Assembly (NCBI GenBank): GCA_034440615.1 | Contig: JAOTOM010004142.1 | Coordinates: 124,001-188,000, forward strand | Source of the DNA: Ashinkailepas kermadecensis | Taxonomy: Eukaryota; Arthropoda; Thecostraca; Neolepadidae | Reading direction: 5' to 3' | DNA: 64,000 nt | Shown: positions 3,443 through 42,019 of the stretch, in pieces | Position numbering within the stretch: position 1 is the stretch's first letter | Layout: each line of letters starts with the position of its first letter | The notes under the pieces: model-generated | Seen by the model: the letters and a program-made list of their open reading frames with translations, nothing else | Told to the model about the DNA's origin: nothing | Databases searched by the model: none | Program-made: the position numbers and the translations under genes

Positions 3443-3553
3443 TACCTGCCCGTGGTCCTGCTCAGGATGACTACATAACATACCCGCTCATCGTCCTGTT
3501 CAGTGTGTCTGTACGTACCTGGGTGCAACCATGTCCAGGGTAACTGCACGTAC
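3443..3553. repeat. Donor-edge tandem array beside the probable UNC5 linker exon
   Basis: Three further copies (35-38 bp) of the last ~25 exon bases plus donor. On the minus strand the copies carry GTACGT, GTATGT and GTACTT after CCAG, GCGG and GCAG. Confidence 0.75.
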
Positions 3554-3663
3554 CTGCCTGTAGTCCTGTCCAGGGTGACCACAGATGAGCCGCCCGACGA
3601 AGAGCCGGTGGTGTTGGCTGATACGGTGGAGAGGGGTGGCCGGGAAGGCAGCGGGCTCGACAC
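3554..3663 (-). CDS. UNC5: Probable UNC5 linker exon between UPA and death domain
   Basis: A Ser/Thr-rich open segment of 36 codons plus two bases, including STVSANTTGSSSGGSSVVTL. It lies where UNC5 proteins have a Ser/Thr linker before the death domain. The acceptor is TGTTGCCAG and the donor is GGCAG|GTACGT, close to consensus. It starts in phase 0 as the preceding exon requires and ends in phase 2. Sequence similarity is too low-complexity to be decisive. The support is position, phase and splice sites, plus the fact that its donor edge is tandemly repeated like those of the certain exons. Confidence 0.5.
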
Positions 3664-3674
3664 CTGGCAACATA

Positions 3675-3965
3675 TTCACACACATCTCAACATATATTAC
3701 CCATACACCTGCGCACATATTATCCACATTCCTACACATCATTCACACGCCTGCACAATATATTATCAACACACCTACACATATATTATTCACACACGTC
3801 CAGATAAATTATCCAACACCTACACATATGCTATCCACACACGTCCAGATAAATTATCCAACACTTACACATATGCTATCCACACACCTCCACATATGTT
3901 ATCGACACATCTACACATGTATTATCAACATACACACAAATATTGTTGACACACATAAATATTAT
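3675..3965. repeat. CA/TA-rich degenerate tandem repeat
   Basis: Repeated CACACACCTACACATATGYTATC-like units, including two ~48-bp copies with GTCCAGATAAATTATCCAAC. Confidence 0.8.
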
Positions 3966-4224
3966 TTATTTATTTACTTATGATTATGATTTATTCATAT
4001 ATCCACATAGATTGTGGATAATATATGCGTAGGTGTGTAGTATATGCATAGTATGTGTATGTGACAACGCCTGCAACACGTGCATATATACATCATCCAC
4101 ACACCAACACAGATCTTGCTCCTGTTCCAGGCGGACATGTTCGTGACTCTCCGAGGACTGAGGAAGAGGACTGGCCGGGGCTGAACAAAAGGAGTGGACG
4201 ACCAGTTCAAATAAGTTTCTGTTA

Positions 4225-5232
4225 GTAGGAGTAATTTTTCGAATCCGGACGCGACATTCCAGGGCCCGGACGCGAGCTTTCTGGCCCCACATATTTTTTT
4301 TCGGAACGTCTGATTTTTTTCGTAGTCCTGGCTGTTTTCCAGGTCCATGCGTGATTTTGCGGGGAACCGGTTGAATTTTCCATCCCTCGGCGGGAAATTT
4401 TCCGGGTTCCAAAGTGACGCTCCGGGTCACGATTGATTGTTTTCAGGGTCCCAGGGCGATAGTTGAGGGTCCAATTCCTTCCATGAGGTAATTTCCCCTT
4501 CGGTACGTTACTGGGACCTCGACGGAATTTGTCGGGACCTCTTCCGAGGTTTTCGGAGCCCGGGCCGACATTTCTGGTCCGGCATGAGTTGTCGAGTCCC
4601 CGCCACAATATTTTGAGCCCCGGCGTGATTTTTTTCCGGATCCTGAAATATCTATTTCGGGGCTCGACACATTATGGGCGCCTTTGGCGTCATTTTGTAA
4701 GCCCCAGTGATTTTCAGTATCAGAGATTGACGTTTCTGGTCGGCGAGACTTTCGGGGATTCGGTACCAGTTTTCGGGTAGCGATTTTTTTTATCGAACCC
4801 GGCGCCATTTCTTTTGGGCCCGCCACCTCTCAGTGGAGGGAATTTACCTCCTCCCCTCGCCTTCGGTACGCAACTGGGCCTCGTAATTAAGAATAGGATA
4901 TCCAAGCTTTGTGTGGAGAATGGGGTTACATTTTTATATCTTTGGGGGAAACTCGACGTGCTGGGCTTAGATGAGATCCATCTGAGCGCGAATGGAGTGG
5001 AATTACTAAGTAGCACGTGTGAGGAGCCTCTATGCAGTCAAACTAGGCAGGTCATGGGGGGAAGAAGATGGTCAGAATGCATTCCTCGAAATAATTATCA
5101 GGCCGCGGTTCCGGCACAAATTGATTTTTTGGAGGCCAGCTACAGCTTTTGGGGTCCCGGCGCGAACTTCTGAGCCCCCAGCGTGATTTTCGAGTGCTGC
5201 GACGCGACCTTTTAGCCCCCGGTGTGCTGTAA
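4225..5232. repeat. Degenerate GC-rich ~30-bp minisatellite in two blocks
   Basis: Blocks 4225-4830 and 5100-5232 consist of diverged units like TTTTCGGGGTCCCGGCGCGA. The 4836-5090 segment between them is different sequence (see the possible LINE ORF1 fragment). Confidence 0.65.
4881..5046 (+). pseudogene. Possible fragment of a CR1-type ORF1 esterase (SGNH) domain
   Basis: The open stretch 4814-5173 contains RISKLCVENGVTFLYLW, then LGLDEIHLSANGVELL. This resembles the C-terminal SGNH-hydrolase pattern (V-FLDLW...DG-HLS-KG) found in ORF1 of some CR1/L2 LINEs. No catalytic Ser block is visible, so it is a fragment at best. Judgement is by memory of the family pattern only. Confidence 0.35.
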
Positions 5233-5283
5233 GAGGATTTGGGTACAGAAGTGGTAGGCCTCTGCTGTTGTTTTTCGTTCCTC

Positions 5284-5595
5284 TCTGTCCGTCCCTCTCC
5301 CTCTCTCCCTCCCTCCCTCCCTCCCTCCCTCCCTCCCCCTCCCTCCCTCCCTCCCTCCCTCCCTCCCTCCCTCCCTCCCTCCCTCCCTCCCCCCCTCCCC
5401 CCTCCCTCCCTCCCTCCCTCCCTCCCTCCCTCCCTCCCTCCCTCCCTCCCTCCCTCCCTCCCTCCCTCCCTCCCTCCCCCCTCCCTCCCTCCCTCCCTCC
5501 CTCCCTCCCTCCCTCCCTCCCTCCCTCCCTCCCCTCCCTCCCCCCTCCCTCCCTCCCTCCCTCCCTCCCTCCCCGTCCCCCTCCCTTCCTCCCTG
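5284..5595. repeat. (CCCT)n polypyrimidine tract, ~310 bp
   Basis: Near-pure CCCT repeat with a few C-run interruptions. The minus strand is (GGGA)n, a mirror-repeat and G-quadruplex-prone sequence. It begins about 20 bp beyond the donor of the 5618-5803 exon. Confidence 0.97.
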
Positions 5596-5617
5596 CCGAC
5601 GGTGTCTCTCGGCTGAC

Positions 5618-5803
5618 CTGAGTTTTCTCGGAGGAGGACACGCGCAGCATCTGTCGACGCGTCTGGCTGCCCTTCTGGCACGCCTGGACACGTGCCGAGA
5701 ACGACAGGCCGTCCCGTGCCGCCACGTGGCCCACGTACTCCAGACTGAAGGAGCAATGCAGCAGCGGGCACGTGCTGCTCCACACGTGCCGGAACGGAAT
5801 CTC
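5618..5803 (-). CDS. UNC5: UNC5 netrin receptor, UPA domain C-terminal exon
   Basis: Encodes 62 residues starting EIPFRHVWSS, the family's EIPFYHVWSG block. LLHCSFSLEYVGH, matching the LHCTFTLER block, and an ARVQACQKGSQ stretch follow, ending near SSEKTQ. The acceptor is CATCCTGCACAG and the donor is ACTCAG|GTCAGC, phase 0 to 0. A 0.3-kb (CCCT)n tract begins only about 20 bp beyond the donor, an unusually close neighbour for a splice site. Confidence 0.91.
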
Positions 5804-6060
5804 CTGTGCAGGATGACACGGCTGTTAGTGCCAACCGCCACACCACGTGAGTTGTCACTAGTTGTCACCAGAAACGAGCACTGTACGCAGCCAGCTTTGC
5901 TGAGCAATAACTAAACAATGAATGGGCACAGCTAAGGGTTGACCTTTGTATAGTTTTGGAGGTCTGCGCCCCCTCCCAATAATTTCAGCATTTAACATGT
6001 GATAATATGGACCATCCCTCAACCGATTTGGATCCCCCATGGAAATTGGAGGTGAGAGTT

Positions 6061-6285
6061 TGGGTTATTGGTCAACGGTATATCTGGTAACATCGGGTTA
6101 TTGGTCAACGGTATATCTGGTAACATCGGGTTATTGGTCAACGGTATATCTGGTAACATCGGGTTATTGGTCAACGGTATATCTGGTAACATCGGGTTAT
6201 TGGTCAACGGTATATCTGGTAACATCGGGTTATTGGTCAACGGTATATCTGGTAACATCGGGTTATTGGTCAATTATATATCTGG
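6061..6285. repeat. 33-bp minisatellite, about 7 copies
   Basis: Nearly identical units GGTTATTGGTCAACGGTATA + 13 bp. The last copy is diverged. The unit is a multiple of three, so several frames stay open by repetition, not coding. Confidence 0.95.
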
Positions 6286-6528
6286 TACAGCCTTTGCAAC
6301 CGGAAACACTGTTAGGGAGCTATAACTACATTTGTGCCTCAAATTTGACAATATCCATCCAGCGAGGAGTACATGCCGAACATATATGCGGGTCGGCATG
6401 TACGACCGGACATATACATTTCCATGCATCAACTGTGTGCCAAATATGCATCCAGGGAGCCGGCAGCAGACAAGGACGATGGACCATGTCAGCCAATACA
6501 GTGTGCATCCCTTCCAAGCCCAACACAC

Positions 6529-6675
6529 CTGGTAATCTCCCTGTGGCTTGCATTTCCATCCCAGACTGAGGTCTTCCAAAGCGAGGCAAAGACTGGCGCC
6601 GCCGCTCTGGAACAGCATCGTCTTGGGCTTGTCCAGCAGTCGACCGCCGAGCTTCCTCTCGAGTTGCAGTACGCT
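6529..6675 (-). CDS. UNC5: UNC5 netrin receptor, UPA domain exon
   Basis: Encodes 49 residues of the UPA domain. SVLQLERKLGGRLLDKPK aligns with the LKEIL-LERQ-GG-LLEEPK block, and LFQSGGASLCLALEDLSLGW aligns with the FK-S-HNLRLSIHD block. The acceptor is CTCTGCAG and the donor is TACCAG|GTGTGT, phase 0 to 0. The YQ end is followed by EIPF from the next exon, as in other UNC5 proteins. No stop or shift is seen. Confidence 0.92.
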
Positions 6676-6807
6676 CTGCAGAGTTGGGAGTGATGGCATC
6701 AACGAAGACATTAGTTGATCGCGATGATGTCGTTGACACATCAGTGATATACCGCAGAGCGGCAGCAGCGCAGCAGGACACATGGAATAACGAGATCTTG
6801 GTTTCGA

Positions 6808-6975
6808 AAAAGAACATTGGGTTCTTTTACGGCGCATTCAACTGCTAGGTCACATCGCCAGCCTATTACGCTGGTTGGTCACGGGTGGACTCTGTTATCC
6901 CGCCGGTTGTGGGATTCGAACCCACGATCTTGCGATCGATAGTGCACGCACCACCGACTGAGCTATCGCGACCGC
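6808..6975 (-). mobile_element. tRNA-derived SINE (family 2)
   Basis: The minus strand shows box A-like GATAGCTCAGTCGGTGG, box B GGTTCGAATCC and a tail GCGCCGTAAAAGAACCCAA. It is flanked by CTTRGTTTCGA (6797-6807 and 6976-6986; one mismatch). Confidence 0.85.
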
Positions 6976-7249
6976 CTTAGTTTCGATGTTCACTATTCAA
7001 CACCGAGTGAAAGAAGCTGCATAGTTGCCGTATTCCTGCGACGCAAAATGCACATGTGGATGACACTTTTGTTGTACATAATTCAGTGCACATTCGAGTG
7101 CCCTGGTAAGTTCTGATGAACCTACCTGGACGACGGTCTTGGTGCCCCGATGCAATTACCAACCTCGGAGAAAGCGCATCTGACATCCGACATCGTGATG
7201 AATTCATTAAACTCTCAGACGGCTTTGTGGTCCACATGAAGCCACCTAC

Positions 7250-7363
7250 CTCGAAGGCAGCTTTGGTGTCCTCGATGACGTAGACGCGGATGCAAGTACT
7301 CTGTGGAGCCCTGCACCAGCCGCGGTCCGAACGCCGCCAGCTTGAGGTTCTTCACGGCCAGAC
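7250..7363 (-). CDS. UNC5: UNC5 netrin receptor, UPA domain exon with apparent +1 frameshift
   Basis: The first half reads LAVKNLKLAAFGPRLVQGSTEY, matching the K-LKLAIFGP...SLEY block of UNC5. After STEY the conserved IRVYVIEDTKAAFE block is in the +1 frame. The exon is 114 bp where a 1-to-0 phase exon should be 113, so one base is extra at or near the TACTTGC around 7285-7290. The acceptor CTGCTCTAG and donor TTCGAG|GTAGGT are intact. A one-base assembly or sequencing error fits better than a dead gene, because all other exons are open. A real disabled allele cannot be excluded. Confidence 0.85.
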
Positions 7364-7458
7364 CTAGAGCAGAGGAGGTCTGCGTCAGACAGGACCGCGG
7401 CTCGAGCATCTACCACCACAGAGGGGAGCAATCTCCCGCGGTTGGTGGCGGTAATTCG

Positions 7459-9010: not shown

Positions 9011-9174
9011 CTCCCAGTGTGGCAGCTCATCTGGCTGGCTCTCAGTGCCATACACAGACACATTCCAGGTTGTCTTGAGGTTGGCGCAGTGGTGAAAACT
9101 GATGACGACCGGCTTGAGAAACTGCGTACCAGGTGGCCCCACGAGTACCACCGGAGATAGTAGCGTCTCATGAT
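9011..9174 (-). CDS. UNC5: UNC5 netrin receptor, ZU5 domain exon (C-terminal half)
   Basis: Continues ZU5. ETLLSPVVLVGPPG matches the TLLTPVVSCGPPG block, and PVVISFHHCAN matches PVVLTM-HCA of the family. The acceptor is TCCTGTGCCAG and the donor is TGGGAG|GTCAGT. Phase runs 1 to 0. The split codon with the previous exon gives Asp. About ten diverged tandem copies of the acceptor plus the first ~40 exon bases extend to the right (9175-9775). The left intron is also made of degenerate TGACCTCAGG-like repeats. Confidence 0.92.
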
Positions 9175-9775
9175 CTGGCACAGGAGTCAGATCAGGTCAG
9201 GTCAGATCGCTGAGAGCCACAAACACCACCGGAAACAGTAGCATCTCACGAACTGACACAGAGGGCAGGGCAGGTCAGGTCAGATCCCGGGCCCAACGAG
9301 TATCACCTGCGCCTCATGATCGGGCACGGAAGTCAAATCAGATCAGGTCAGATCGCGGGTGACTCACGAGCATCACCGGAGACAATAGCGTCCCGCGATC
9401 TGGCACATATGTCAGGTCGAGTCAGGTCCCGGGGGGACCACGAGCACCACCAGATACAACGGCGTCTCGCGATCTGGTACATGTGTCAGGTCCCGGGGAC
9501 CGCGAGCACCACCAGATACAACGGCGTCTCGCGATCTGGTACATAGGTCAGGTCCCGGGGACCGCGAGCACCACCAGATACAACGGCTTCGATCTGGCAC
9601 ATAGTAGGTGAGTCAGGTCCCGGACAACACCAAGAAAAGGCGCCTGCGATCTGGTACATAGGTCAGTACAACGGCGTCACACGATCTGGAATAGGTCAGA
9701 TCAGACCCCGGGGGCCACGAGCACCACCAAAGCACAACAGAGTCTCATGATCTGGCGTAGAGGTCAGGTCAGGTC
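9175..9775. repeat. Acceptor-edge tandem array beside UNC5 ZU5 exon
   Basis: About ten 60-80-bp units, two or three nearly identical at 62 bp. Each contains GAGCACCACC...TCTCGCGATCTGG, i.e. the first exon bases plus the GCCAG|AT splice site of the 9011-9174 exon read on plus. Confidence 0.88.
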
Positions 9776-10389: not shown

Positions 10390-10603
10390 TGGGACCTGTC
10401 TGTGATGTGGCTCACCTGGTAGTTGGCTAGTTATTAAACCAATGGGCTTACATCAGTGGTCATGATGCGCCAATGGTTACATGACAGGCCTGTCTGTGAT
10501 GTTTCAGTTGGGACTTATCTTGATGTGCCTCACCTGACAGTTGGCCGGTCCGTCTGAGATGTGACTCACCTGACAGTTTGGGTATGTCTGTGATGTGACT
10601 CAC
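10390..10603. repeat. Donor-edge array beside UNC5 ZU5 exon
   Basis: Copies of CTCACCTGACAGTTGG (exon end plus GTGAG donor on minus) occur near 10405, 10527 and 10562, before the real one at 10600. Confidence 0.8.
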
Positions 10604-10744
10604 CTGACAGTTGGGGTCTGTCTTTGGCGTCAGCCATGACTGCCAAATAGACCTCCTCCGTTTGTCCCACGGCCACAGCGCCCTCGGGCACCATCAGGGT
10701 CACGCCGGCATCGACCAGGCTCAGAACTGCGCCGGCCGAGGTCA
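10604..10744 (-). CDS. UNC5: UNC5 netrin receptor, ZU5 domain exon (N-terminal half)
   Basis: Encodes the start of the ZU5 domain, which in UNC5 packs against UPA and the death domain to keep the tail autoinhibited. Visible motifs are DAGVTLMVPEGAVAVGQ, matching the GVSLLVP-GAIPQG core, and EEVYLAVM. The acceptor CTGCCCCCAG is strong and the donor CTGTCAG|GTGAGT is near consensus. Phase 1 to 1. The donor edge with its GTGAGT-like site is repeated three more times to the left (10390-10603). A separate ~55-bp array begins about 10 bp outside the acceptor. Confidence 0.92.
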
Positions 10745-10754: not shown

Positions 10755-11035
10755 GCGGTGACCGGTGTGAAGTCAGGCTAGCACAGCGGTGTCAATAATG
10801 ACACAGGTGACCGGTGTGATGTCAGGCTATCACAACAATGTCACTAATGACAGGTGAACGGCGTGAGGTCAGACTAGCATAATGGTATCAATAATGACAC
10901 AGGTGACAGGTGTGAGGTCAGGCTAGCATAACGGTATAAATAATGACACAAGTGACCGGTGTGAAGTCAGGCTACCACAGCAGTGTAAATAATGACACAG
11001 GTGACAGGTGAGAGGTTAGGCTGCTAGCATAACGA
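10755..11035. repeat. ~55-bp minisatellite, about 5 copies
   Basis: Units of AATGACACAGGTGACCGGTG plus GTCAGGCTAGCAYARCGGT. It starts about 10 bp outside the acceptor of the 10604-10744 exon but does not include exon bases. Confidence 0.85.
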
Positions 11036-13600
11036 TGTCCAAGGTCAGACACCCGCCAATGTCGTCCATACCTAATATCGCGGAAGAGTCAGCTAATGCG
11101 ATCAGTGGCGAATATGTTAGCTAATTATAACGCGTCGGGCAATATAACTGTCATGCTATCATGGCTTATAAACTAAAACCAAGGAGGGAAAAATACGAGC
11201 ATGAACAACCATTGGTTGTCAACACTCCTTTAGCCAGCGTAGCTGATAGTTCAGCGAGGGCATGACAGATGTCGCACCTACCTGTGCCGAACTCGAGGTT
11301 GTCCGGGTTGACACCAGATGGCAGTGTGTTGGAGAGCAGGGACTGCCTGCACGAGGCTGGCTCGGCGTCGTACAGCGAGGCGGGGCGGGACGTTGCTGCA
11401 AAGTGCACACAGAGCCATGCTCAACATATTTCCAATGTCATTCGTACTTTGCGGTAGACTCAACTATGGTACTTATTCGAGAAGTACTTCAGCTACAGTT
11501 CGAAAGCAAAATCTCCGTACATTTCGGCTACATTACGTTGCATTCGTTAGTGGCACATTACACCACCGAAGGCAACACAATGTAAATAAAACACAGCTTT
11601 TAGTTATTTGAGTTTGATATCGAAATATATATCCAAGTAACGTCACAAAAACGTACCGTATTTACATCAACGTCCCACGCAATATTGAATACATTCGTGT
11701 AAAAATCCAGAACGATGCAAGATCCCGTCTGCTTCCACGTCACCCAGAGTGCTCTGATCTCCTGGATGGTGCCTGCTCGCCACCACCAACCACCCCAGAG
11801 CAGTTGGCACAGTTCGCTGTCAGTGGCAACAGATTTCGTGCTCGACGCGGCGTTGATTCAGTTACTCAGTTTACCCAGTTAGCGGTAATTCGAATTTGCT
11901 TCCTAAGTGGTGCCTAGTCGAATTACCGTAACCATGTAAACAGTTCGCACGAGCCCGGTAAAGTCGAATTCACCAGCGGGCTAAATCATTTGCCAAGGGA
12001 TTGGCGTGATGGAAGCGAATTCCGTGTATGGATTTCTGTTGAGGAAAAAGGATGCTGAATTCAAGAAGCATTGAAGCCATTTCATTTTTGTGCCAAATAT
12101 TGAAAATTGAGTGATACAAAACAGGGTATTTGATGATATTTGGCAATATTGTTACCTTAAATAACTTTGAAATGCACGTAATTATTCCGGCTTAGAGCCG
12201 ATACCTTTCCTTTGTGGTCTTGTTTGGGTTCTTTTACGACGCATTCAACCGCTATGTCATATAGCTGTGGTTTTGTTTACGTCATCAATTATATTGAAGC
12301 GAGTTTGGATTGAGGGAACCGGCTGATTGTGGATCATATTTTCATTTTATTACACTGATCGATTTCATTTTCATTCACTATTGCTATGGAGACTAAGAGA
12401 TGGCCATCATTTTAAAGGTCATACGAGACCTTAGCCTATCTCAATTACAATGCAAAAGTTTAATACGAACAAAGCTTTCTCAATACGCATTCATCAATAC
12501 TTTAAGTTATGTAGCGTTGCCCAAGGTCCTATCCTATCTGCCCCAAAACATGCAAGCTCTGCATCTTTTAAAAATCCAAAGATTCCACCATTCACACCAA
12601 AATAGCAAATATTCCCAAATGCCAAACATTCGCCTGAATACATTCCCCATTCTAATTTTATTCGTATTTACTTGAACAGCTGATCAGACTTAATCCCTTG
12701 AATATGTCCTGAATTAACGCCTTACACCGCCGAATTTCGATCCGATCCAACTTCGAATTTACGTAGCAGTCTGCCAGTGTAAACCGGGTTAGTGTCGGCT
12801 GTGTTTGGTATCCGATCTTCTGGGCACCCTCGGCTTGCATCAGTGGAGATGCAGTTCTACACAACACTAACATCCAATGCACCGTAGGCTATTGGAAGAA
12901 AATACGCACCTCTTCGCCAAGACCGACGCTCTTATACCTGGTCGGGTCCGGAGGAAAAGGGTTTAGTACCAAAGGGGCTTAATACCATTACGTCGACGAC
13001 TCTCGCGCGCACAGGTCTGAGTAGCATGTCGGGCGGCCATTTGGGCTGCAGAGTGCAGTTGGCTATTGGATTGCGCCTTCGACGAGCTGCGGCCATTTCA
13101 CCGCTATGGGATGAGGGAGACGGGGAAAACAGCGCGCGGAGTAGGCATCTCGGACGTGGTTCGTGGCGATGGGTGGGGAAACGCGACTGGGTAGCGCATC
13201 GACCGCGTCCGCTGTACCAACTTCTCAGCAACTGAACGCAACACATATGCATCGATGCATGAGCGGTATTTTCGATGCGTCGGCTGCATTGTGTTTCGAT
13301 CATCATCGCATCGACATTGACACACCAGCTGAACAGCTTCATTATACCTACGAGCGACTCCACCTTATTCGCTGCGTAAACCAGTTCTACCACATGAGAA
13401 GCAAGCAAGCTCCGCTAAGATGACACTCGAAACATCCCAAAGCAGCACACAATCGGTGGTCGCTGTTTCCCAATCGCCGACTAACCGACACGCAACACAC
13501 AACAATGAGGTCTGCAGTCGACCCTGATCTGCAGACGAGCCGGCAGGACGAGCAGCACCCCTGACCCGGCCGGCGGCGGCGAACCACCCGCGCGCACACT
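11036..13600. other. Intron sequence without recognised gene
   Basis: No coding pattern was recognised. Apart from the 40-bp insertion at 12226, I see only unique-looking sequence, AT-rich around 11900-12650 and GC-richer at 13000-13250. Confidence 0.6.
12226..12265 (-). mobile_element. 40-bp SINE tail insertion (family 2 end)
   Basis: GGGTTCTTTTACGACGCATT plus 20 bp ending CATATAGC. It is flanked by TGTGGTCTTGTTT (12213-12225) and TGTGGTTTTGTTT (12266-12278), 12 of 13 identical. Confidence 0.82.
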
Positions 13601-13603
13601 CAC

Positions 13604-13794: not shown

Positions 13795-13862
13795 GATCCA
13801 GTCTTAGCGTTAACAGTCTTAGTGTTAACAGTCTTAGCGTTAACAGTCTTAGTGTTAATTAC
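13795..13862. repeat. 16-bp tandem repeat, 4 copies
   Basis: GTCTTAGYGTTAACA units just outside the acceptor of the 13604-13783 exon. Confidence 0.9.
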
Positions 13863-15789: not shown

Positions 15790-16021
15790 GGATGATGTCA
15801 CTGGTCACTCTCCACGAGGCCATGCATGCTCTGCCCATGGCCCTTGGATTGTCACCTACCTCTTTCCGTGAGGCCATACATGCTGTGTCCATGGCCCTTG
15901 GGCTATTACCTACCTCTCCCCATGAGGTCATACATGCTCTGCCCACGGCTCTTGGGTTGTCACCTACCTCTCTCCACGAGGCCATACATGCCATGCCCAC
16001 GGTCCTTGGGTTGTAACCTAC
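15790..16021. repeat. Donor-edge array beside UNC5 transmembrane exon
   Basis: Four ~51-54-bp copies of the exon's 3' end with donor. On minus, each has GGGCCRTGG...ATGTATGGCC...GAGAG, and three retain GTAGGT. Confidence 0.9.
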
Positions 16022-16168
16022 CTCTCTCCGTGAGGCCATACATGCTCTGTCCACGGCCCTTGCGCCGGTACAGCTTGAGCGCCAGCAGCGCTATCATTGG
16101 GAACACGAGCAGCGCCACAGCCAGACCCACGTACAGGGCAACGTCCGAGCGGGCCACAGCATGAGGAG
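16022..16168 (-). CDS. UNC5: UNC5 netrin receptor, transmembrane exon
   Basis: Encodes the single membrane span. SDVALYVGLAV is the UNC5 signature just outside and inside the membrane, followed by a hydrophobic run to about ALLALKLY and a basic stop-transfer YRRKGR. The acceptor is TGTTTCAG|CTCC. The donor chosen is GAGAGAG|GTAGGT at the left edge. An alternative GCC|GTGGAC donor would end the exon at 16055 in the same phase. Phase is 1 at both ends and matches neighbours. Both edges are tandemly duplicated in the flanking introns, so several alternative acceptors and donors compete with the real ones. Confidence 0.88.
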
Positions 16169-16345
16169 CTGAAACACAGCGCAGCACAGCACGTCACAGC
16201 CAGACCCACGTACAGGGCAACGTCCGAGCGGGCCACAGCATGAGGAGCTGAAACACAGCACAGCACAGCACGTCACAGCACAGCCAGACCCACGGATAGG
16301 TCAACGTCCGAGCGGGCCACGGCATGAGGAGCTGACACAACACAG
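16169..16345. repeat. Acceptor-edge array beside UNC5 transmembrane exon
   Basis: Two further ~80-bp copies of the acceptor plus the first ~60 coding bases (GGGCCACAGCATGAGGAGCT read on plus), separated by GCAGCACAGCACGTCACA. Confidence 0.92.
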
Positions 16346-16564
16346 CACAGCACAGTAGACGGCCAGTCATCGCCTGCCTCTTGCGCGAACAATTCACCAC
16401 GGCGGCTGCGGAATGGTGCGAGAAAACAGCGACCACTGCCTCGACGTCTGTAATTTCTACATCCTGGACGTGGCTCGGGTGTCCTCAGCGGCTGCCCGAC
16501 CTGGCGACCTGACCTGACGCCGCCACAGCAACGGCAGCAGCTGATCGGCGAGACCAGCTGACTG

Positions 16565-24439: not shown

Positions 24440-24613
24440 ATGTTGGAAAGTAGTGCGGTCGGTGCTTCAAATCCATACCGCATATGCGTCCACCATGGCC
24501 GAATTAGTACACTAAAACCCCGACCGCCGTCAGAACTGGTGCGGTCGGTGCTTCACATGTGCCCACCATGGCCGAATTAGTACACTAAAACCCCGACCGC
24601 CGTCAGAACTGAC
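24440..24613. repeat. Duplication of donor-proximal sequence of UNC5 TSP1-2 exon
   Basis: CCGACCGCCGTCAGAACTGR is present twice about 70-75 bp apart with the following intron bases. The outer copy has lost the GT. Confidence 0.75.
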
Positions 24614-24778
24614 CTGCACACTCTGCCTCCGAGCAGTTGCGAGACACTCGGTCCGGCCCAACGCAGAGTCGGCCGCCGTGGGCCGGGGTCGGCGCCGAAC
24701 ACGACCGGCGGCGGTACTGGCGACAAGTGACGTCACACCCCGACCAGCCGCCGTACTGGGTCCACCCGCCGACCACGG
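24614..24778 (-). CDS. UNC5: UNC5 netrin receptor, exon encoding thrombospondin type-1 repeat 2
   Basis: Encodes the second extracellular TSP1 repeat. WTQYGGWSGCDVTC is followed by RRRSC, HGGRLC, RNC and EAEC, giving the six expected cysteines. The acceptor is TCTGTTACAG and the donor is GTGCAG|GTCAGT, phase 1 to 1. The split codon with the previous exon gives Pro, matching the CP-V linker between TSP1 repeats of UNC5. The split codon with the transmembrane exon gives Ala. The acceptor edge is repeated in a 65-bp array to the right (24779-25005), and the donor-proximal sequence is duplicated to the left. Confidence 0.92.
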
Positions 24779-25005
24779 CTGTAACAGACAGGTGACGTCA
24801 CACCCCGATCAGCCGCCGTACTGAGTCCACCCGCCGGCCACGGCTGTAACAGACGGGTGACGTCACACCCCGACCAGCCGCCGTACTGGGTCCACCCGCA
24901 GGCCACGGCTGTAACAGACGGGTGACGTCACACTCCGACCAGCCGCCGGCCACGGCTGTAACAGACGGGTGACGTCACACCCCGACCAGCCGCCGTATTG
25001 GGCCA
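24779..25005. repeat. Acceptor-edge array beside UNC5 TSP1-2 exon
   Basis: The block GTGACGTCACACCCCGACCA ... CCACGGCTGTAACAGAC recurs with 65-bp period (24727, 24792, 24857, 24922) and once shortened (24969). Each full copy keeps TCTGTTACAG on minus. Confidence 0.93.
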
Positions 25006-26356: not shown

Positions 26357-27992
26357 TCATGCCATTGTGAGGAAGCTATGTCAGGAAAATAAAGCCAAAC
26401 AAGGCAGCAGGACCTGATGGAATCTATGCTAGGGTATTGCGGGAAGCTGAAAAAGAATTGGCAATTCCACTCAGTATAATATTTTGTAGATCAGTTTCAC
26501 AAAATGAAATTCCAACCGATTGGAAAAGGGCAAATGTAGTTCCTATTTTCAAGAAAGGAGAAAGAGGGAAAGTTGAAAACTATAGGCCAGTAAGCCTCAC
26601 ATCACTAGTCTGCAAGGTACTTGAATCAATTATCAAGGATAAAATAGTTAGTTTTCTGGAAGGAAACAGAGTGATTCAAGATACTCAACATGGGTTTAGA
26701 AAAGGGCGATCGTGTTTCACAAATCTCTTGGACTTTTTTAATTTTGCTACAGAACAATTTGATAAGGGAAATCAGGTTGATGTAGCATATCTTGACTTTA
26801 ACAAGGCCTTTGACAAGGTACCTCATAAACGGTTAATGATGCAGCTTCAGGCCCATGGTATTGCGGGTAACATCCTAAAATGGATAGGGTTGTGGCTTTC
26901 AGATAGACAGCAGAGAGTGATGCTAAATGGTACAAAATCATCATGGCAAAATGTTCTTAGTGGAGTCCCCCAAGGGTCAGTATTGGGACCACTATTGTTC
27001 ATTATGTTTGTAAATAACATTGAAAGTAGCCTAAGCAGTAAGGTTTTGAAATTTGCAGATGATTTGAAGGTCTTTAGGGCAATAACAGGGCACAATGAGC
27101 AGGTCTTGCTGCAGAAAGACTTAGACGAGCTTGTGAAGTGGTCCGAAAAATGGCAAATGAAATTTAATTTTGATAAGTGCAAAATCATGCATGTAGGTAG
27201 GCAGCACATCAAGGCTCCATACTTGATGGGTGGCCAAGTACTATCTGTGACTCAGCAGGAGAAGGACTTAGGTGTTATTTTTAACACAAAATTGGGGGCA
27301 TCAGAACAGACCAAAGAAGCCAGGAAGAAGGCACTAAGAATGCTTGGGGCAATAAATAGGAATGTATCATACAAAAGTGTGGAAGTGATCAGGAAGCTTT
27401 ATTGTGAATATGTCAGGCCACATCTGGAATATTGTGTCCAGGCTTGGTCACCTAGTTATGAAAAAGATTGTTGGCTTTTAGAGAGAGTACAAAAGAGGGC
27501 AACAAAAATGGTGAATGGTATGGGCAACCTGGCATATGAGGAAAGATTGAAGAAATTGAATATGTTTTCACTTAGATATAGAAGGCTGAGAGGAGATCTC
27601 ATCGAGGTCTTTAAATTTGTTCATGGTCAGGAACAGGGTTATATCAGGGAACTGTTTGAATTTAACAGAAATGATGCAATTAGAGGTCATCGATTCAAAA
27701 TTAAAGTTAATCACAGCAGGACAAGGTTAAGACAGTCCTTCTTCACCAACAGGGTAGTAGAACACTGGAACCAGCTGCCAGAAACCCATTGTCAGTAGCA
27801 ACACACTGAACATCTTTAAGAACAGCATAGACAATCATTATAAGAATAGGGGGCTTGTTTTTCTGTATTCCAGGGAGAGTTGATCAACACATTTGATGGA
27901 CAACTGGTTCAGTGTACAGAGTGCAACCAAGAAGGGGCCTTGTGGCTCATAGTTGCACTGATCTTTTATGTCTTTATGTCTAAGCTACAAGC
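26357..27992 (+). pseudogene. CR1-like non-LTR retrotransposon, copy B, 5'-truncated
   Basis: An uninterrupted RT frame runs from about 26371 to 27798. It begins at NKAAGPDGI and carries WKRANVVPIFKKG, YRPVSLTS, YLDFNKAFDKVPH (catalytic Asp), SGVPQGSVLGP and FADD (catalytic pair). A thumb region ends at HWNQLPE. The last ~15 codons are thrown off by one extra base near 27785. The 5' end, with endonuclease and ORF1, is missing. The 3' end is two TTTATGTC units (27967-27982). CACAAGCAG occurs at both ends (26348-26356, 27993-28001) and may be the target duplication. The copy is far better preserved than copy A, so it is younger. Clade CR1/Jockey is inferred from motifs. Confidence 0.85.
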
Positions 27993-28224
27993 CACAAGCA
28001 GGCACATCAAGCCCGTGCTTAATTCATCATAGAAAACACCACTTATCGGACACTAAGTACTTCTACACCCTTTTCCGGTATATATGGGATAGCAGACTTT
28101 ATTTCAGCCTTGCTTGCACACAAAATGAAAGGTACCTCGGCTACTGTACTGATTCGAATAGTCGAAAATTAACAACATTGTCCTGAACTTGGCAAAACGT
28201 GACGTGGACAAGCTGATCACTGAC

Positions 28225-28749
28225 GTGGACAGACGGAGCACTCCAGTGGACAGAGTGAGCACTCCCGTGGACAGAGTGAGCACTCCCGTGGACAGAGTGA
28301 GCACTCCCGTGGACAGAGTGAGCACTCCTGTGGACAGAGTGAGTACTCCCGTGGACAGAGTGAGCACTCCCGTGGACAGAGTGAGTACTCCCGTGGACAG
28401 AGTGAGTACTCCCGTGGACAGAGTGAGCACTCCCGTGGACAGAGTGAGCACTCCTGTGGACAGAGTGAGTACTCCCGTGGACAGAGTGAGCACTCCCGTG
28501 GACAGAGTGAGTACTCACGTGGACAGAGTGAGCACTCCCGTGGACAGAGTGAGCACTCCCGTGGACAGAGTGAGTACTCCCGTGGACAGAGTGAGCACTC
28601 CCGTGGACAGATTGGGTACTTCTGTAGACAGAGTGAGCACTCTAGTGGACAGAGTGAGCACTCCCGTGGACAGAGTGAGTACTCCCGTGGACAGAATGAG
28701 CACTCTCGTGGACAGAGTGAACACTCCCGTGGACAGAGTGAGTACTCAC
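28225..28749. repeat. 21-bp donor-edge array beside UNC5 TSP1-1 exon, ~25 copies
   Basis: Units GTGGACAGAGTGAGYACTCC C are copies of the exon end plus donor (minus TCTGTCCAC|GTGAGTACTC). Most have CGGGAGT instead of CGTGAGT, but one copy at 28511-28520 keeps GTGAGT. Confidence 0.95.
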
Positions 28750-28917
28750 GTGGACAGAACGAGTCGCAGTTGTCAGTCTGCCGGGCCGGACCGACACAGT
28801 CTGCTCCGCCGTTCAGAGGCCGTGGGCTGTCGCACGTGCGCTGCCGCACCCTCTGTCCGGGACCACAGAGGGGTGCGCAGGCGGACCAGGCGGACCACGG
28901 GGACCACCGACCGTCCA
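28750..28917 (-). CDS. UNC5: UNC5 netrin receptor, exon encoding thrombospondin type-1 repeat 1
   Basis: Encodes a full extracellular TSP1 repeat. The WSPWSAWSAC tryptophan ladder is followed by the RQRTC and NGGADC motifs, with six cysteines ending in DSFCP. The acceptor is CTCCTGTTACAG and the donor is CCAC|GTGAGT. Both phases are 1, fitting the Ig2 exon before and the second TSP1 exon after. Both edges are seeds of tandem arrays: 21-bp units on the donor side (28225-28749) and 40-45-bp units on the acceptor side (28918-29205). The reading frame stays open through the donor-side array, so read-through would add Cys-containing 7-residue repeats. Confidence 0.93.
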
Positions 28918-29205
28918 CTGTAACAGGAGAGGGAGGTCATACAGGGGACCACCGACCGTCTACTGTAACAGGAGAGGGAAGAGGTCATCCAGAGGACCAC
29001 CGACCGTCCACTGTAACGGAGGGTCGGGGACCACCGACCGTCCACTGTAACAGGAGAGGGAGGTCATGCAGGGGACCACCGACCGTTCACTGTAACGGGG
29101 GGAGGTCATACAGGGGACCACCGACCGTCTACTGTAACAGGAGAGGGAGGAGATCATCCAGAGGACCACCGACTGTTCACTATCACAGTGAGAGGGAGTA
29201 GGCCA
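28918..29205. repeat. Acceptor-edge array beside UNC5 TSP1-1 exon, ~7 copies
   Basis: 40-48-bp units GGGACCACCGACCGTYYACT GTAACAGGAGAGGG. The minus strand keeps CTCCTGTTACAG|TRGACGG in several copies; two read CCGTTACAG. Confidence 0.94.
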
Positions 29206-29282: not shown

Positions 29283-29447
29283 TTGGTTGGTTGGTTATTG
29301 GTTTTACGACACGTCGACCGTTGAGTCATGTAGCGTCGCCAATCTCTCACGCCGATTGGTCGCGGGCGAAGAGTAGCGACAGGTGAGACTCGAACCCACA
29401 ACCTTTCGATTGTGAGACGAGCATCTTACCCCTAGACCACTCGTCCC
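29283..29447 (-). mobile_element. tRNA-derived SINE (family 1)
   Basis: Full copy with boxes A and B on minus and (CCAA)n-like tail. Perfect 15-bp duplication CCCATCATACAATGG at 29268-29282 and 29448-29462. Confidence 0.93.
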
Positions 29448-29569
29448 CCCATCATACAATGGACAACAACACGTCCACTGCAACATGGGGGAGGCCATAC
29501 CAGCACTCGCTGGATGCCCATCACTGCAACCGAACGTACTTCCAGCCAGTCCGCCGCGGATATATTGTC

Positions 29570-34507: not shown

Positions 34508-34633
34508 GAACGCAGTGCTATCGTGTTCCAAGGAGACTATCAATCACATCGGAAACGCACCACTGCACTGCAGAGTGCAGTCCATCATATAAAGCCAACC
34601 CAGGACGAGCAATCGCATCAGAAGTCGTTCACG

Positions 34634-34887
34634 GATCTGGCAGTCCCTAGACGGAAGCACCACCCACACACCGACGGAAATACATGGTGAATAACCAGCA
34701 AGACGTAAAATTGGGAAAATTGCGAGCGAGGTGTTGCACGCTTCATCTCTCCCGATTTGGGATCTGGCAGTCCCTGGACGGAAGCACCACCCACACACCG
34801 ACGGAAATACATGGTGAATAACCAGCAAGACGTAAAATTGGGAAAATTGCGAGCGAGGTGTTGCACGCTTCATCTCTCCCGATTTGG
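34634..34887. repeat. 127-bp tandem duplication
   Basis: Two nearly identical copies starting GATCTGGCAGTCCCT at 34634 and 34761. Confidence 0.95.
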
Positions 34888-36327: not shown

Positions 36328-38192
36328 GAACAAAATGCAGCAAAAAGCACACAGCTGAAGCAAGTGCGCATCAGTAATTACATACAAATAGTGGGGAGGG
36401 AGGGAGAAAGAATGTTGACGTGAATGATCTTCATGCAACGATAGTGACGTGATAGTAACGTTCAGTAAGTTTGGCGACGCGACATTCCCCGTCCCCTTGG
36501 CTAGGTCCAAGAGATTGGGCAAACGCCGGGACAACACGAGTTGACTGGTTCCCAGTTCAATATGCCCCACTTCTTCAAACGTCCTCGCGGGTGAAAACTG
36601 CACAGGTGAACACCACGGCGACATCGCCAGCATTGCGATAATTAAAACGAAAAAAAACTATATAAATCCGGCTGACGTGAATGATGTGCTTTCCTCTCCA
36701 ACGCGTCGTATTTCCGTCGCCGCTCAAGTCGCTCGCGCTAAGCATCTCCCGCAATTTATCCAGCCCGCTGTTACAAATGCAAAGCCCTGCCGCCTATCGC
36801 TGTTCTCGCTCATTTGGGTCACCCGCGCAGACGAGGCAATCATGCCAATCATTCATCAGTGATGCAAATCCTGCATACTTGACACCGTGAGCCCCTGTCA
36901 CAGCGGAGAGATTCGGAAAAATGAGATGCAAATTGCATGGTTGAGATTGAACATGGAAATTCTGCGCGAAGGCCTTACATTTTCAGGTTGAACCAGATGG
37001 AAGTGGTGGCGAACTAACAAAGTTCCTAGTTACGAGTGTTTCACCGTTTTCCATTAGATGCATATATTTATGCGCATTCCTGGCAGACGCCACCCCACAG
37101 TTGAACCGATTCCTGGACAAGGCTTCCATGAGAGGGCCCTGATATATCCCCTATAGTTAAACTGATTTCTGAGCAAATCTTGCCTGCGAGAGCCTTAATT
37201 TATCCCCTACAGTTGAGCCGATTCCCGGACATTTCCGGAGAAGGCGTCTGTGTCAGGGCCTGATTTGTCCCCTGCAGTTTAGTTAGCCGGCTCCTGCACG
37301 AAGCTTCCGTGTGAAGTCTCTGATTTATCCTCACACGTTGCGCTGATTCCTGGAAAAGGCATCCATGCGAGGGCCCTGACTTATCCCCACAGTACCAGAT
37401 TAAAGTACACACGGTGTGTCACTTCTGCACAGTCCGTCACCAAGAGGAAGGAGGCGCTGCGCACGTGCTGGTGGCAGCCTCCACCGACCAGCATCGATAG
37501 CCGAACACTCCGAACGCACACCTCCCACACGACGATTCAAGTTTCCCAGTTCTCTTCACACAGGGTGGCATTGGGAGATACGACCGAGGAGGATGGAGGT
37601 TAAGGACAATATTTGGGTATTTATATATCTATTTGTTTTACTACATGCACAGCCATTCATCACCCCGCGAAGGCATCATAATAGCCACCATCGGACGGAC
37701 GTGCTGCGGCAAACATAAGCAAATAAACAAACTGACGTTAGATGTGATGCGGGAAGACGAAGAGGCTGGGGAAGATGGCGTTGTTCGGCTCACGTCCCGT
37801 CGCGTTCTGTCTCCGCGCCATGCTCACAAGCGTGTGCAGGAAGACAACATAAAAGGATGATATGAAAATGATCATCCATGCAATTCCCAAGACTTCTGAT
37901 TTGCGCTGGTTATCTCGATCGTTCGGAGTTTTGCATGTGATTGGCGGCGTTTATTAAGTGTTAAACATCACGGGCATGCGAGGAAATTGACTCATTTTGG
38001 CAGAATTTCTGTGTCTCGTCAGCTGATCAAAATTACAGGTTCTCGAACTTAAATATGTTTTCAGTTGTGCATATTCATTTTCTCAAGCCTCAAACTTAGG
38101 TATGTTACGGTGTGTGGTACACAATGAAAGGCACCGTTATTTTCCAGGTTCAAAGTTGTTTAGTTGCAGCAATGCTTTTTTATATATTTTTT

Positions 38193-38261
<69 letters not shown>

Positions 38262-38377
38262 ATTGAGGGCTAAAACATTGGATTGAGACAGGAGGAAAAT
38301 CATCGGGAGTGGAGGGGGCCCGCCCACAGGGTCCTATGCTAAATTATGAAAACGTGGAAATTCAAAAGATGGGACAG

Positions 38378-38444
<67 letters not shown>

Positions 38445-38859
38445 TGTGTAAATAAACTTAAAAGTAAGTACAACTTTTATCGCTACTTTTGATGTCAACT
38501 CAGCACCTCCTGGTATATTGAAGGTCGTATATTATATTTACACACAATGTTACACCCAGGAGTTACAGTTACAAACCCAGGAGCATCTAAGAGCCATTCT
38601 TCGTTATATTATATATATATATGAACACCCATGAGTTGCAGCATACTTCAAGAGCAGATCTTCAAAAAGGAAAACTTCAGGAGGCCGAAGCCAACCGAAG
38701 CCAGCCGAAGCCCGCCGAACCGAAGCCAGCCGAACCGAAGCCAGCCACTTGATAAACCTAGAAGCGAATACAAAATTACATCACTGTAGAGTAACGGCTG
38801 GGTAGGTATAGCAAATTGAAAAAGTGCATACACACGCCGTAGCTATATCGTGACACCAC
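36328..38859. other. AT-rich intron sequence without recognised gene
   Basis: Long (AT)n at about 38190-38260 and 38380-38440. A GAAGCCAGCCGAA short repeat at 38690-38750. A degenerate TTATCCCCTACAGTTGAGCC-type ~60-bp repeat at 37080-37400. Confidence 0.6.
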
Positions 38860-38871
38860 AATCAACAATCC

Positions 38872-38935
38872 TTGTTATTGTTATTGTTATTGTGGTTTAG
38901 GGGCGCATCGACTGCACAGGTCATATAGCGCCCAT
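38872..38935 (-). mobile_element. 64-bp miniature insertion with TTATTG tail
   Basis: (TTATTG)n tail, TTTAGGGGCGCATCGACTGC, then GTCATATAGCGCCC. Flanked by identical AATCAACAATCC at 38860-38871 and 38936-38947. Confidence 0.92.
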
Positions 38936-38947
38936 AATCAACAATCC

Positions 38948-40749
38948 AAGATATTATCCTGTAGATACCAAATTAGACACTAAGATACATGCTGCCAGTG
39001 CGATACGTCCCCGCCGCGGACGCCTGGTTATTCCCCAGAACAGTGTCGCTGGGCACAACTCTAGCACACTCAGCTCACCGAGGGATTCTCCGACTGTCCA
39101 ACAGGCGTTGTGTTTGTCGGGAATTGGACCAAGAAAAAAACAAACATCCACATCACGGGCGATGGTCCGAGCCTTTTCCCCGCCAAAATACCGCGAAACG
39201 ACCGCCGGCCTCCGGCATCGGTTATGTCGGCCAAATTGGCTCCGAGCCGCCTTATCTCGACATCTCGCCCGCGGGAATTTGCGGGGCGGGAAATCGCCGC
39301 CCGCACGAGGCTCGAGAGGTAAACGTGTTTTTCTCCCGAGTGGAGGCGCCCGGCGATACATCATGAGTCGCGCACGTGTTTACCTCGGTCAGTAACCTCA
39401 TTACGCGCGAGAGGAGCTTCGGTCGGCAGATCTGAGCTCGAGTCTCGGCTCGTGATCACTGTTCCGGGACTACGAGCTGAGCTGGGGGCACGTTCGCGAC
39501 TGGTCGCAAACGGTGCTGCACGCCCGGACTGAGTATGCGGTTGTAGCGCCTGTTGCAGGCGCCCTTTTCAGAATATGATGGCGGGGCAGGATGTGAGAAC
39601 GGGGGGGGGGGGAATGGTACGAGAAGGAGACTTCCCTAAGGAAACTACTGAGGTGTCACACCCCTCCCTATAAAACAACATGGTCATCTTCTTCCAGGAA
39701 TGCAAATAAATACTTGACTTCCTGCACAACCTTGGCGCAGCTTTAGATTGCCTTCTTCCAGACCCCTCCCTCCACACGTGTAAGCCATCAGTCCGCCACC
39801 GTGTTGGGAGTCTGGGCAGCATGCACACAGAGAACAGAATGAACGTCAAATAAATCGCAGCAGCTGAAGTCTGGGTCAGCTGAACTTTTAGCCGTTTTCA
39901 ACGACCAGACCACGTGTCAAGCTGCCGTACGTCATAGCAGTAATCGTTATACGCATCATCGATAGCTCTCTGAGGCCCTTCTGTCCAAGAGCTACCGGGT
40001 GGCACAGGGTTGGATTTATGTCTTGGAATTCTGGATTGGGAGAGGAAAATTTGCGGAATTCCAGATTGGAGATGATAAACTTGATTTGTTTCTAGCTTTC
40101 AAAACTACTTCTTTTACGTGTTGGTCAGTTTTTGGCATGCGTATGAAACAGCCTGCAGTCAGTCATGCAGTCAGACTTGCAGTCATTTTAAAACAACTTG
40201 ATTACGTTGTGGCAAACAGCAAAACAAGGAGCAAAAAGCAAACAAAAAGGTGCTGCCTTCCCGCCGAGGGAAACGTTCTGGACGACAAACATCCCGCACA
40301 CAGCCATGCCGCCAATCCTGCCGGAACGACGGCTTCCGCAGCGACTACGGGTAGCATTCGAACAGCAGAAGCGATTGAAGACATTGATTATACACAGCTG
40401 ACCGGCCAAGTGTTCGTAGCCGCGACAGGGCGACCTCTCAACTGACGAATGTTTAGCGAGACGACATGTCTTCTAATGAGCGCTGGCCGACGCCATGTGG
40501 GTCAAGGCGACACCCAGCACGACTGCCACGGCCGGAGCATGGTCGGCTGATGCAGCAGGGATGTTTCAAGACTCCCGAGAGCACCAGCACATTGCACCAC
40601 GGCGCTATCACTTAAGCTATGAGTGATGGTTATGGCTGGCATCCAGTCACTTCAAATAATTACATATGCAAAATGCACTGGACAAACATACCTGGACAAA
40701 TTCAGCGTCACATTTGCGACTGTTGGCATGCATTCTCGCTGCTCGTACA
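38948..40749. other. Intron sequence without recognised gene
   Basis: GC-rich 39000-39500 with ORFs up to 136 codons on both strands. A G-run at 39601. No family recognised. Confidence 0.5.
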
Positions 40750-40972
40750 CAGGGACGGACTCAGAAATGTTGATCGGTGGGGGGGGGCACTTGTTTTGGA
40801 GGGGCGTCACTTCTCTGCTTGGCGCCTTTGCATCTCGAGTGCCATTGACCGAGTTGGTGGGGGTGCACCAGAGCTTCTTGAACGGGTGCCTTTCTTTCCA
40901 GTCCAAGGGCGACACATGTCTATCGGGGGTGGGGAGTGCATGTCCAACAGTTTCCCCCTGGATCCGCCACTG
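40750..40972. mobile_element. hAT-type MITE with perfect 8-bp target duplication
   Basis: Ends CAGGGACGGACTCAG and its inverted partner GGATCCGCCACTG. CTCGTACA flanks both sides (40742-40749, 40973-40980). Non-coding, 223 bp. Confidence 0.88.
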
Positions 40973-41499
40973 CTCGTACACAGATTAGCCGAATGCGGGG
41001 CGGGGTGACCGGAGCGCCGTGTGGCATCTCGTGCAGTGTACGACCAAATCCTGCACATAAAACGGCTGGGCTCACGTCACCTACCCGTAGACGTGTCTCT
41101 GATCGGGCATCCTTGATCACCAAATGAAGCCTCCTTAGTTGAAAGAAAAGACAGTAAGTAGTTTGCGACACATTTCGAAGTGCGGCCACCAAGTCTTCAC
41201 CAGCAGCTGAGGTTCAATTTACATGTTGCAAAGCGTAACTTTTAAACATGTAACTTACACGCAAAGCTACAGATATTGCCTTCTTCTTCTTCGGTGAATT
41301 TGACCAGCCTGCCACCAGTGCGGTGATATCGGCTGTTGTCGGAGTGTGTGTGAGGTGTATTCTGTTTGGTTTGTGGGTGACGTGGACAACAATAAATGTA
41401 TCGATGTAAGGAGCAGGGTACCCGGTTTCGTTTTGATCGGCCGATTCACTGACGATATTTACGCGAATCAAACCAGAATCTGCCGCAGGGCATCACGGT

Positions 41500-41734
41500 G
41501 ACGGTGAGCCCCAACTGCCCGCAGACGGTGAGCCCAACTGACCGTAGACGGTGAGCCCCAACTGACCGTAGACGGTGAGCCCCAACTGACAGTAGACTGG
41601 CCATGACCGCAGACGGTGAGCTCCAACTGCCGTAACTGACCGCAGACGGCGAGCCCAACTGACCGCAGCGGTGAGCCCCAACTGACCGTAGACGGTGAGC
41701 CCCAACTGACCACCGTCAGTGAGCCCCAACTGAC
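41500..41734. repeat. Donor-edge array beside UNC5 Ig2 exon, ~9 copies
   Basis: ~23-26-bp units GTGAGCCCCAACTGACCGTA GACG, copies of exon end plus donor (minus CTCACCGTCTACG|GTCAGT). Most copies keep GTCAGT. Confidence 0.95.
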
Positions 41735-42019
41735 CGTAGACGGTGAGCCGCGCCGCCTGGCTGATCCTCCTGTTGGCCACGTTCTCGGCCACACACGAGT
41801 AGTTGGCCATGTCGGACAGCCTGACGGCGGCGATCAGCAGGTTGCCCTCGTTGCTGATGATGTAGTTGGGGTCCTGCGTCACGTCGACAGTGACGTCATT
41901 CTTGAGCCAGCTGACGGTGGGCGCCGGGTTGCCCTCGGGCGCGACACAGCGCAGCTCCACGGTCTGGTCGACCTCCACGCGGTCCGAGAACGGCGGCGTG
42001 TGGAACGACTTCTTCAGGT
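41735..42019 (-). CDS. UNC5: UNC5 netrin receptor, exon encoding Ig-like domain 2
   Basis: The exon encodes about 95 residues of an immunoglobulin domain in the extracellular, netrin-binding part of the receptor. It opens with a YLKKSF-like stretch typical of UNC5 just after Ig1. The first Ig cysteine (VELRC), the core tryptophan (SWLKN) and the ANYSCVAEN motif with the second cysteine follow, and it ends in LTVY. The acceptor reads CCGCAG before the exon and the donor is TACG|GTCAGT. It starts and ends in phase 1. The last codon (G plus TG of the 28750-28917 exon) gives Val, matching the VYV junction before TSP1 in known UNC5 proteins. Immediately downstream is an array of copies of its own 3' edge. 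Confidence 0.93.

Follow-up and report, generated by a model that had tools for sequence, protein, structure and literature searches.

The window analysed here is a 64-kb stretch of the genome of the barnacle Ashinkailepas kermadecensis (contig JAOTOM010004142.1, positions 124,001 to 188,000 of the forward strand). It carries a minus-strand gene for UNC5, a receptor in nerve guidance, in which nine of the 28 predicted exon/intron junctions adjoin a minisatellite whose unit copies the exon edge together with its splice site. After UNC5 exons had been found on the minus strand with a probe sequence, 14 exons were mapped by tblastn with P0001 (a Pollicipes pollicipes UNC5 gene model) and P0002 and P0004 (two Amphibalanus amphitrite UNC5 gene models), together with the splice consensus. 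The exon edges are predictions from homology and this consensus, and the end of exon D2 was later moved by one base. The exons are as follows.

41735-42019, minus strand: exon A, second Ig domain; 74% identical to P0001; edges acccgtccgcag / ... / gtcagttg
28750-28917, minus strand: exon B, first TSP1 domain; by homology
24614-24778, minus strand: exon C, second TSP1 domain; by homology
16022-16168, minus strand: exon D, transmembrane segment; 92% identical to P0001
14955-15098, minus strand: exon D2, juxtamembrane, without junction array; 94% identical to Amphibalanus P0004
13604-13783, minus strand: exon D3, juxtamembrane; by homology
11282-11395, minus strand: exon D4, juxtamembrane, without junction array; by homology
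10604-10744, minus strand: exon E, start of the ZU5 domain; by homology
9011-9174, minus strand: exon F, remainder of the ZU5 domain; 82% identical to P0001
8048-8174, minus strand: exon G, without junction array; by homology
7250-7363, minus strand: exon H, without junction array, frame broken by one extra base; by homology
6529-6675, minus strand: exon I, UPA domain, without junction array; by homology
5618-5803, minus strand: exon J, UPA domain, without junction-spanning array; by homology
3554-3663, minus strand: exon K, weakly matched linker exon ahead of death-domain exons, for which the window gave no match; E 5e-4 against Amphibalanus P0004

The identity of the gene, already proposed in the first-pass annotation, was borne out by three kinds of match. 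The joined exons matched Ig, TSP_1, ZU5 (4.5e-28) and UPA (5.4e-40) in Pfam as well as UNC5B (6ool) and 3g5b in the PDB, and their best protein matches, among the 7,998 candidates scored (those that shared the most words), were barnacle UNC5 gene models: that of Pollicipes pollicipes (75% identity, 53% of the query covered) and those of Amphibalanus amphitrite (65% and 62% identity). These values suggest a thoracican barnacle that is not close to either of the two sequenced species. The order of domains (Ig, TSP1, transmembrane, ZU5, UPA) is that expected for an UNC5 netrin receptor. No match to the first Ig or the death domain was found in the window (tblastn, E up to 0.5), the 3' side of which ends at exon K, and the first Ig exon may lie beyond the 64 kb. 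As to orthology with one of the two Amphibalanus gene models, tblastn gave a mixed picture: exons D2 and K are closer to Amphibalanus P0004, and exons A and F to Pollicipes P0001. In exon H, an extra base at 7295 separates matches at 7358-7296 and 7294-7250 that lie in different frames; the break could be either a sequencing error or a damaged allele.

We aligned the gene to itself across each junction, demanding a true match on both sides. Edge-copying arrays were detected at nine of the 28 junctions, namely five donors (A at 41735, B at 28750, D at 16022, E at 10604 and K at 3554) and four acceptors (B at 28917, C at 24778, D at 16168 and F at 9174), which belong to seven exons; exons B and D carry arrays at both edges. 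The count was nine at cut-offs of 14 to 20 and eight at cut-offs of 25 and 30, and none of 336 shuffled controls had a copy crossing the junction. Besides the splice site, the array unit holds 9-61 bp of exon. Intervals called by Tandem Repeats Finder (TRF) cross eight of the nine junctions and include 9, 15, 19, 20, 23, 41, 57 and 61 bp of exon; for the exon F acceptor, TRF returned 9421-9666 only, without the exon-touching part, and the ~36 bp of exon come from self-alignment. The arrays, together with a duplication beside the exon C donor, are listed below, and the number of copies is that of copies further to the authentic edge.

41500-41749, minus strand: exon A donor-edge array; ~24-bp unit, 9 copies, 15 bp of exon inside, GT in 8/9
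28203-28758, minus strand: exon B donor-edge array; 21-bp unit, 25 copies, 9 bp of exon inside, GT in 2/25
28899-29198, minus strand: exon B acceptor-edge array; ~45-48-bp unit, 6 copies, 19 bp of exon inside, AG in 6/6
24722-24995, minus strand: exon C acceptor-edge array; 65-bp unit, 3 copies, 57 bp of exon inside, AG in 3/3
24440-24613, minus strand: duplication beside the exon C donor; starts 2-3 bases into the intron, exon edge not copied
16108-16353, minus strand: exon D acceptor-edge array; 79-84-bp unit, 2 copies, 61 bp of exon inside, AG in 2/2
15808-16062, minus strand: exon D donor-edge array; 54-bp unit, 4 copies, 41 bp of exon inside, GT in 3/4
10521-10623, minus strand: exon E donor-edge array; 34-bp unit, 2 copies and one at 10415, 20 bp of exon inside, GT in 3/3
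9139-9763, minus strand: exon F acceptor-edge array; steps of 62-79 bp, 6 diverged copies, ~36 bp of exon, AG in 5/6
3445-3576, minus strand: exon K donor-edge array; ~35-bp unit, 3 diverged copies, 23 bp of exon inside, GT in 3/3

The extra copies are on the intron side of the authentic edge. Ten junctions of seven exons had been claimed originally; self-alignment, the listing of copies and TRF (eight of nine) support nine junctions of the same number of exons. The tenth, 24440-24613, was rejected as an edge-copying array, its best copy (probe +2..+30) being purely intronic. The exon K donor is the weakest of the nine and barely satisfies the rule of a match on both sides. The check proposed along with that claim, a TRF run with the units aligned across the exon borders, showed units crossing the border at eight of these nine junctions by TRF and at all nine by self-alignment, and the claimed range of unit lengths (21 to ~80 bp) was reproduced as 21 to ~84 bp by TRF and the listed copies. 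A looser self-alignment, taking seven bases on each side without demanding a match there, gave 12 junctions at low cut-offs; the C donor and the D3 and E acceptors among them lack a match in the exon part and were discarded.

Other repeats lie near junctions in this gene. Three arrays end close to acceptors without copying them, at 13799-13858 (a 15-bp unit, 15 bp upstream of the D3 acceptor), 10757-11022 (12 bp from the E acceptor) and 3679-3944 (15 bp from the K acceptor). A CTCC repeat occupies 5297-5594, ~23 bp from the exon J donor, and a perfect 50-bp palindrome (3186-3235; two 25-nt arms, no spacer) is found ~320 bp beyond the exon K donor.

In the nine arrays, 61 further copies reach at least 62% identity with the authentic edge. 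AG is present in 16 of the 17 acceptor copies, and GT in 19 of the 44 donor copies, that is, 17/19 outside the exon B donor array and 2/25 within it. We do not claim selection keeping the splice sites in the copies, as retention is high in eight arrays and 2/25 in the ninth, and the copies of an array share ancestry. The mean divergence from the authentic edge is lowest at the D acceptor (0.103) and highest at the F acceptor (0.313). In the exon A array and in the exon B acceptor array, some copies show no difference from the authentic edge at the bases compared. Because the mean divergence differs between arrays, the arrays are of different ages and stem from separate events. Consistent with the claim that the unit sequences are unrelated, blastn among the 46 merged TRF arrays of the window found no relation among the junction arrays in that set; the single related pair, at 62.7-63.3 kb, is not at an exon.

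The predicted consequences of using the copies differ between the two kinds of edge. All 16 AG-bearing acceptor copies would, if used, cause a frame shift or a stop, and these decoys must therefore be ignored or their products destroyed. An open frame would be kept by nine of the 19 GT-bearing donor copies (A 5/8, B 2/2, D 1/3, E 0/3 and K 1/3, the last judged without the next exon), and some donor decoys could add residues to the protein; use of the copies at 41710, 41686, 15967 or 28518 would insert 8, 16, 18 or 77 residues in frame. Three of the five donor units (24, 21 and 54 bp) are multiples of three, from which no claim was drawn. At the edge of exon C (24776 region), the exon encodes P-V-V-G-G-W, the three array copies (up to 24955) are of a P-V-A/A-C type, and Amphibalanus P0004 has P-V-A-G-G-W; the copies in the array may preserve an earlier form of the exon.

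Arrays are denser beside exons than deep in introns. They cover 33-39% of intron sequence within 100 bp of a junction and 10.5-15% beyond 400 bp. For the first 100 bases the cover is 0.385, against 0.121 beyond 400 bp (0/20,000 draws) and 0.147 for all intron sequence from 100 bp outward (p=0.0004). In these 100-bp tests, and in the GC-matched ones below, the exon F array was entered by hand; with TRF arrays only, the cover within 100 bp is 0.33-0.39. When arrays were placed at random, junctions spanned by an array or within 25 bp of one numbered 5.00 on average, against 11 observed (p=0.009). A placement sparing the coding sequence, in which no array may swallow an exon, lie inside one or cover more than 80 bp of one, gave a mean of 1.52 spans against the eight found by TRF (0/3,000). 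Among the 26 internal junctions, spanning arrays occur at 7/12 edges beside introns of at least 1.3 kb and at 1/14 beside shorter ones (Fisher p=0.009), although the cut-off was set once the data were known; with 2 kb instead, p=0.06. The link with longer introns could be cause or effect.

In these arrays, the units hold the splice dinucleotide together with the exon edge, the additional copies are stacked towards the intron, the units are unrelated, and the events were separate. We consider it likely, at a probability of roughly 0.6, that the arrays are tandem copies of edge and splice site produced by repeated local duplication and kept because the exon-adjoining copy can still be spliced. 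Slippage or microhomology-driven duplication would occur throughout the repeat-rich introns and be commoner beside exons. A duplication reaching from the exon into the adjoining intron would be nearly neutral because one intact edge remains, whereas a duplication wholly inside an exon would alter the protein and be lost. Once two copies exist, unequal exchange could let the array grow and drift on its intron side. The spliceosome would presumably keep to the exon-proximal site, because any acceptor copy used would break the frame. Frequent local tandem duplication alone could yield edge-copying arrays; the higher cover close to exons points, in addition, to duplication being initiated there more frequently or to arrays persisting for longer in such places. 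The two causes offered in the first-pass annotation, slippage or repair seeded at junctions and selection sparing duplicates that leave splicing intact, may act together.

Several results weigh against this reading. The gene part of the window contains 31 merged TRF arrays, which make up 16% of its length, and at least ~20 of the gene's arrays touch no exon. Random intron points (1,500 points) were spanned at 16-20%, which predicts ~4.5 to 5.6 of 28 junctions (p 0.048 to 0.089), so that the nine observed (eight at the two strictest cut-offs) amount to 1.6-1.8 times the expectation; free random placement of arrays gave a mean of 4.15 junctions spanned against eight by TRF (p=0.062). At 42.4-63.8 kb, where no exon was found, array cover is 0.217, which narrows the contrast with the 0.385 beside junctions (p=0.017). 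The copies do not generally keep their splice signals, the exon B donor array lacking GT in 23 of its 25 copies. Array cover is also tied to base composition, at 25% where the flanking GC content is 0.6 or more and 7-15% below. In addition, the p values flatter the excess, as neighbouring windows were taken to be independent in the draws and the gene was chosen for its pattern: this is a single gene on a single haplotype, taken up after the pattern had been seen. The suggested comparison with random windows thus turned out mixed, positive for near-junction cover and for the coding-sparing placement, and weak in the plain tests. Likewise, the process said to act repeatedly at exon borders is recurrent, as the unrelated units and differing ages indicate, while its preference for borders is weakened by the many arrays off exons, the similar density at 42-64 kb and the small excess. 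In this gene, the surplus of arrays at exon edges is probably genuine, though modest by the plainest test.

These figures speak for a rival explanation, plain repeat density. If the introns of this barnacle are simply rich in minisatellites, some arrays inevitably cross exon edges with no preference for borders; by the looser self-alignment, intron points are spanned at 18-24% depending on the cut-off. Nevertheless, arrays cover three times as much of the intron sequence within 100 bp of junctions as they do farther off, GC-matched or not, and free placement counts arrays that swallow whole exons, the exclusion of which brings its mean down to the 1.52 given above. We therefore regard plain density as unlikely, though it is the strongest of the alternatives. 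A second alternative is a GC-driven birth of minisatellites, in which the exons, as GC-rich islands, would seed arrays at their edges by composition alone. The GC content is 0.635 in exons, 0.578 in arrays and 0.505 in other intron sequence, in line with this proposal. The contrast in cover survives matching, however, whether for the GC content of the intron flank (0.362 vs 0.092; 27 junctions, 0/5,000) or for that of the flank including the exon (0.311 vs 0.085; 25 junctions, 0/5,000), and three exons that equal A or D in GC content, namely D3, D4 and J, are without a spanning array; composition alone is an improbable cause.

A selected function, in which the extra splice sites would be retained as alternative donors adding in-frame repeats to the receptor, for example between the second Ig and the first TSP1 domain, would accord with the nine of 19 GT-bearing donor copies that extend the protein in frame without a stop. 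We think it quite improbable, as none of the 16 AG-bearing acceptor copies would do so, the exon B donor array mostly lacks GT, and P0001 and P0002, both predicted models, show no such insert between Ig2 and TSP1. An artefact of long-read assembly, expanding or misjoining repeats beside exons, can be largely set aside, for although the window holds two near-identical copies of a 127-bp unit at 34633-34887 (99% identity; a very recent duplication or an assembly doubling) and the one-base frame break in exon H makes single-base or local errors possible, the junction copies differ mutually by 9-43% (mean per array), which an assembler would not invent.

The first-pass annotation knew of no description of such a pattern, but one is in print. 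Tandem repeats spanning exon/intron boundaries, termed mirages, are reported from several amphioxus genes (PMC3087553, PMC3902484). The genes are Adh3 and the globins BflGb6 and BflGb9, to which PMC3902484 adds PGBD5 (related repeats) and, by citation, TnC; the unit lengths are 10-72 bp in Adh3 and 150-160 bp in the globins, and undisturbed normal splicing, array lengths that vary between alleles and somatic instability are reported (PMC3087553, PMC3902484). As in the UNC5 arrays, found at nine of 28 predicted junctions, the mirage unit holds the exon/intron boundary at donor or acceptor edges, the unit lengths overlap, and AG or GT is kept in many, not all, copies (16/17 and 19/44 in UNC5). 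The UNC5 arrays differ in occupying nine edges of one gene, including both edges of exons B and D, and in sitting amid a general enrichment of arrays near exons. All cases that we found in print are cephalochordate, whereas the gene here is a barnacle UNC5, as its 75% and 65% identity matches indicate; this is a difference of lineage, not of anatomy. By their anatomy, the UNC5 arrays are mirage minisatellites, which, judged by lineage, would have arisen separately from those of amphioxus. In the open-licence literature we found no report of mirages from an arthropod host or of nine in a single gene, the term itself for amphioxus only, and no paper on barnacle intronic minisatellites; the available text of barnacle genome papers makes no mention of the pattern. 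A paper on earthworm metallothionein was set aside, as its available text has intronic minisatellites and does not describe junction copies. The kind of structure is thus already known, and what is new is the lineage and how many edges of a single gene are affected.

Two other systems are related. Variable internal tandem repeats with ~30-bp units occur at exon-intron boundaries in human segmental duplications and can make novel introns, and they share with the UNC5 arrays the expansion of minisatellites at such boundaries (PMC2812944). They were found via recent paralogs with transcript evidence, whereas the UNC5 case is one invertebrate gene in genomic sequence alone. Zhuo 2007 and Gao and Lynch 2009 are reportedly cited for intron gain by tandem duplication. 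The gain of introns by tandem duplication of AG/GT proto-splice sites is described in the Rogers model, in human introns from tandem arrays, in Drosophila and in the RNA-dependent RNA polymerase gene of potato, and there too a splice-competent sequence is duplicated in tandem (PMC2891723, PMC4974935). In that process, an exon gives rise to a new intron, whereas in UNC5 existing junctions are multiplied.

Some further elements were seen in the window. In the stretch without found exons, a minisatellite with a 23-25-bp unit and more than 90 copies occupies 56393-58666. The reverse-transcriptase open reading frame of an element resembling a long interspersed nuclear element (LINE) lies on the plus strand at 26371-27795 (RVT_1, E 2.3e-36), in the intron A-B to C region. 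The minus strand holds five copies that resemble tRNA-Val(CAC) (475-547, 29373-29448, 44847-44922, 46402-46477 and 61254-61329), the first within a broken LINE-like stretch; they likely represent a tRNA-derived short interspersed element.

It is attractive to speculate, albeit doubtful, that exon borders are hot spots of minisatellite birth throughout barnacle genomes, independently of the lancelet mirages. Tandem duplication would then start at exon edges and steadily furnish decoy splice sites, new in-frame additions to proteins and material from which new introns could form, and coding edges would be rewritten by conversion between exon and array. If the arrays of the barnacle UNC5 are mirages, they would show that this structure also comes about in a phylum far from that of amphioxus and may affect a third of the edges of one gene. 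Such arrays bear on the ways in which introns acquire repeats, decoy sites and possibly new exons, and gene finders may misplace exon edges in genomes of this kind. They would offer a natural test of how the spliceosome, faced with near-identical sites spaced by a few dozen bases, selects the copy closest to the exon, and in genes such as this one the birth of decoy splice sites could be followed.

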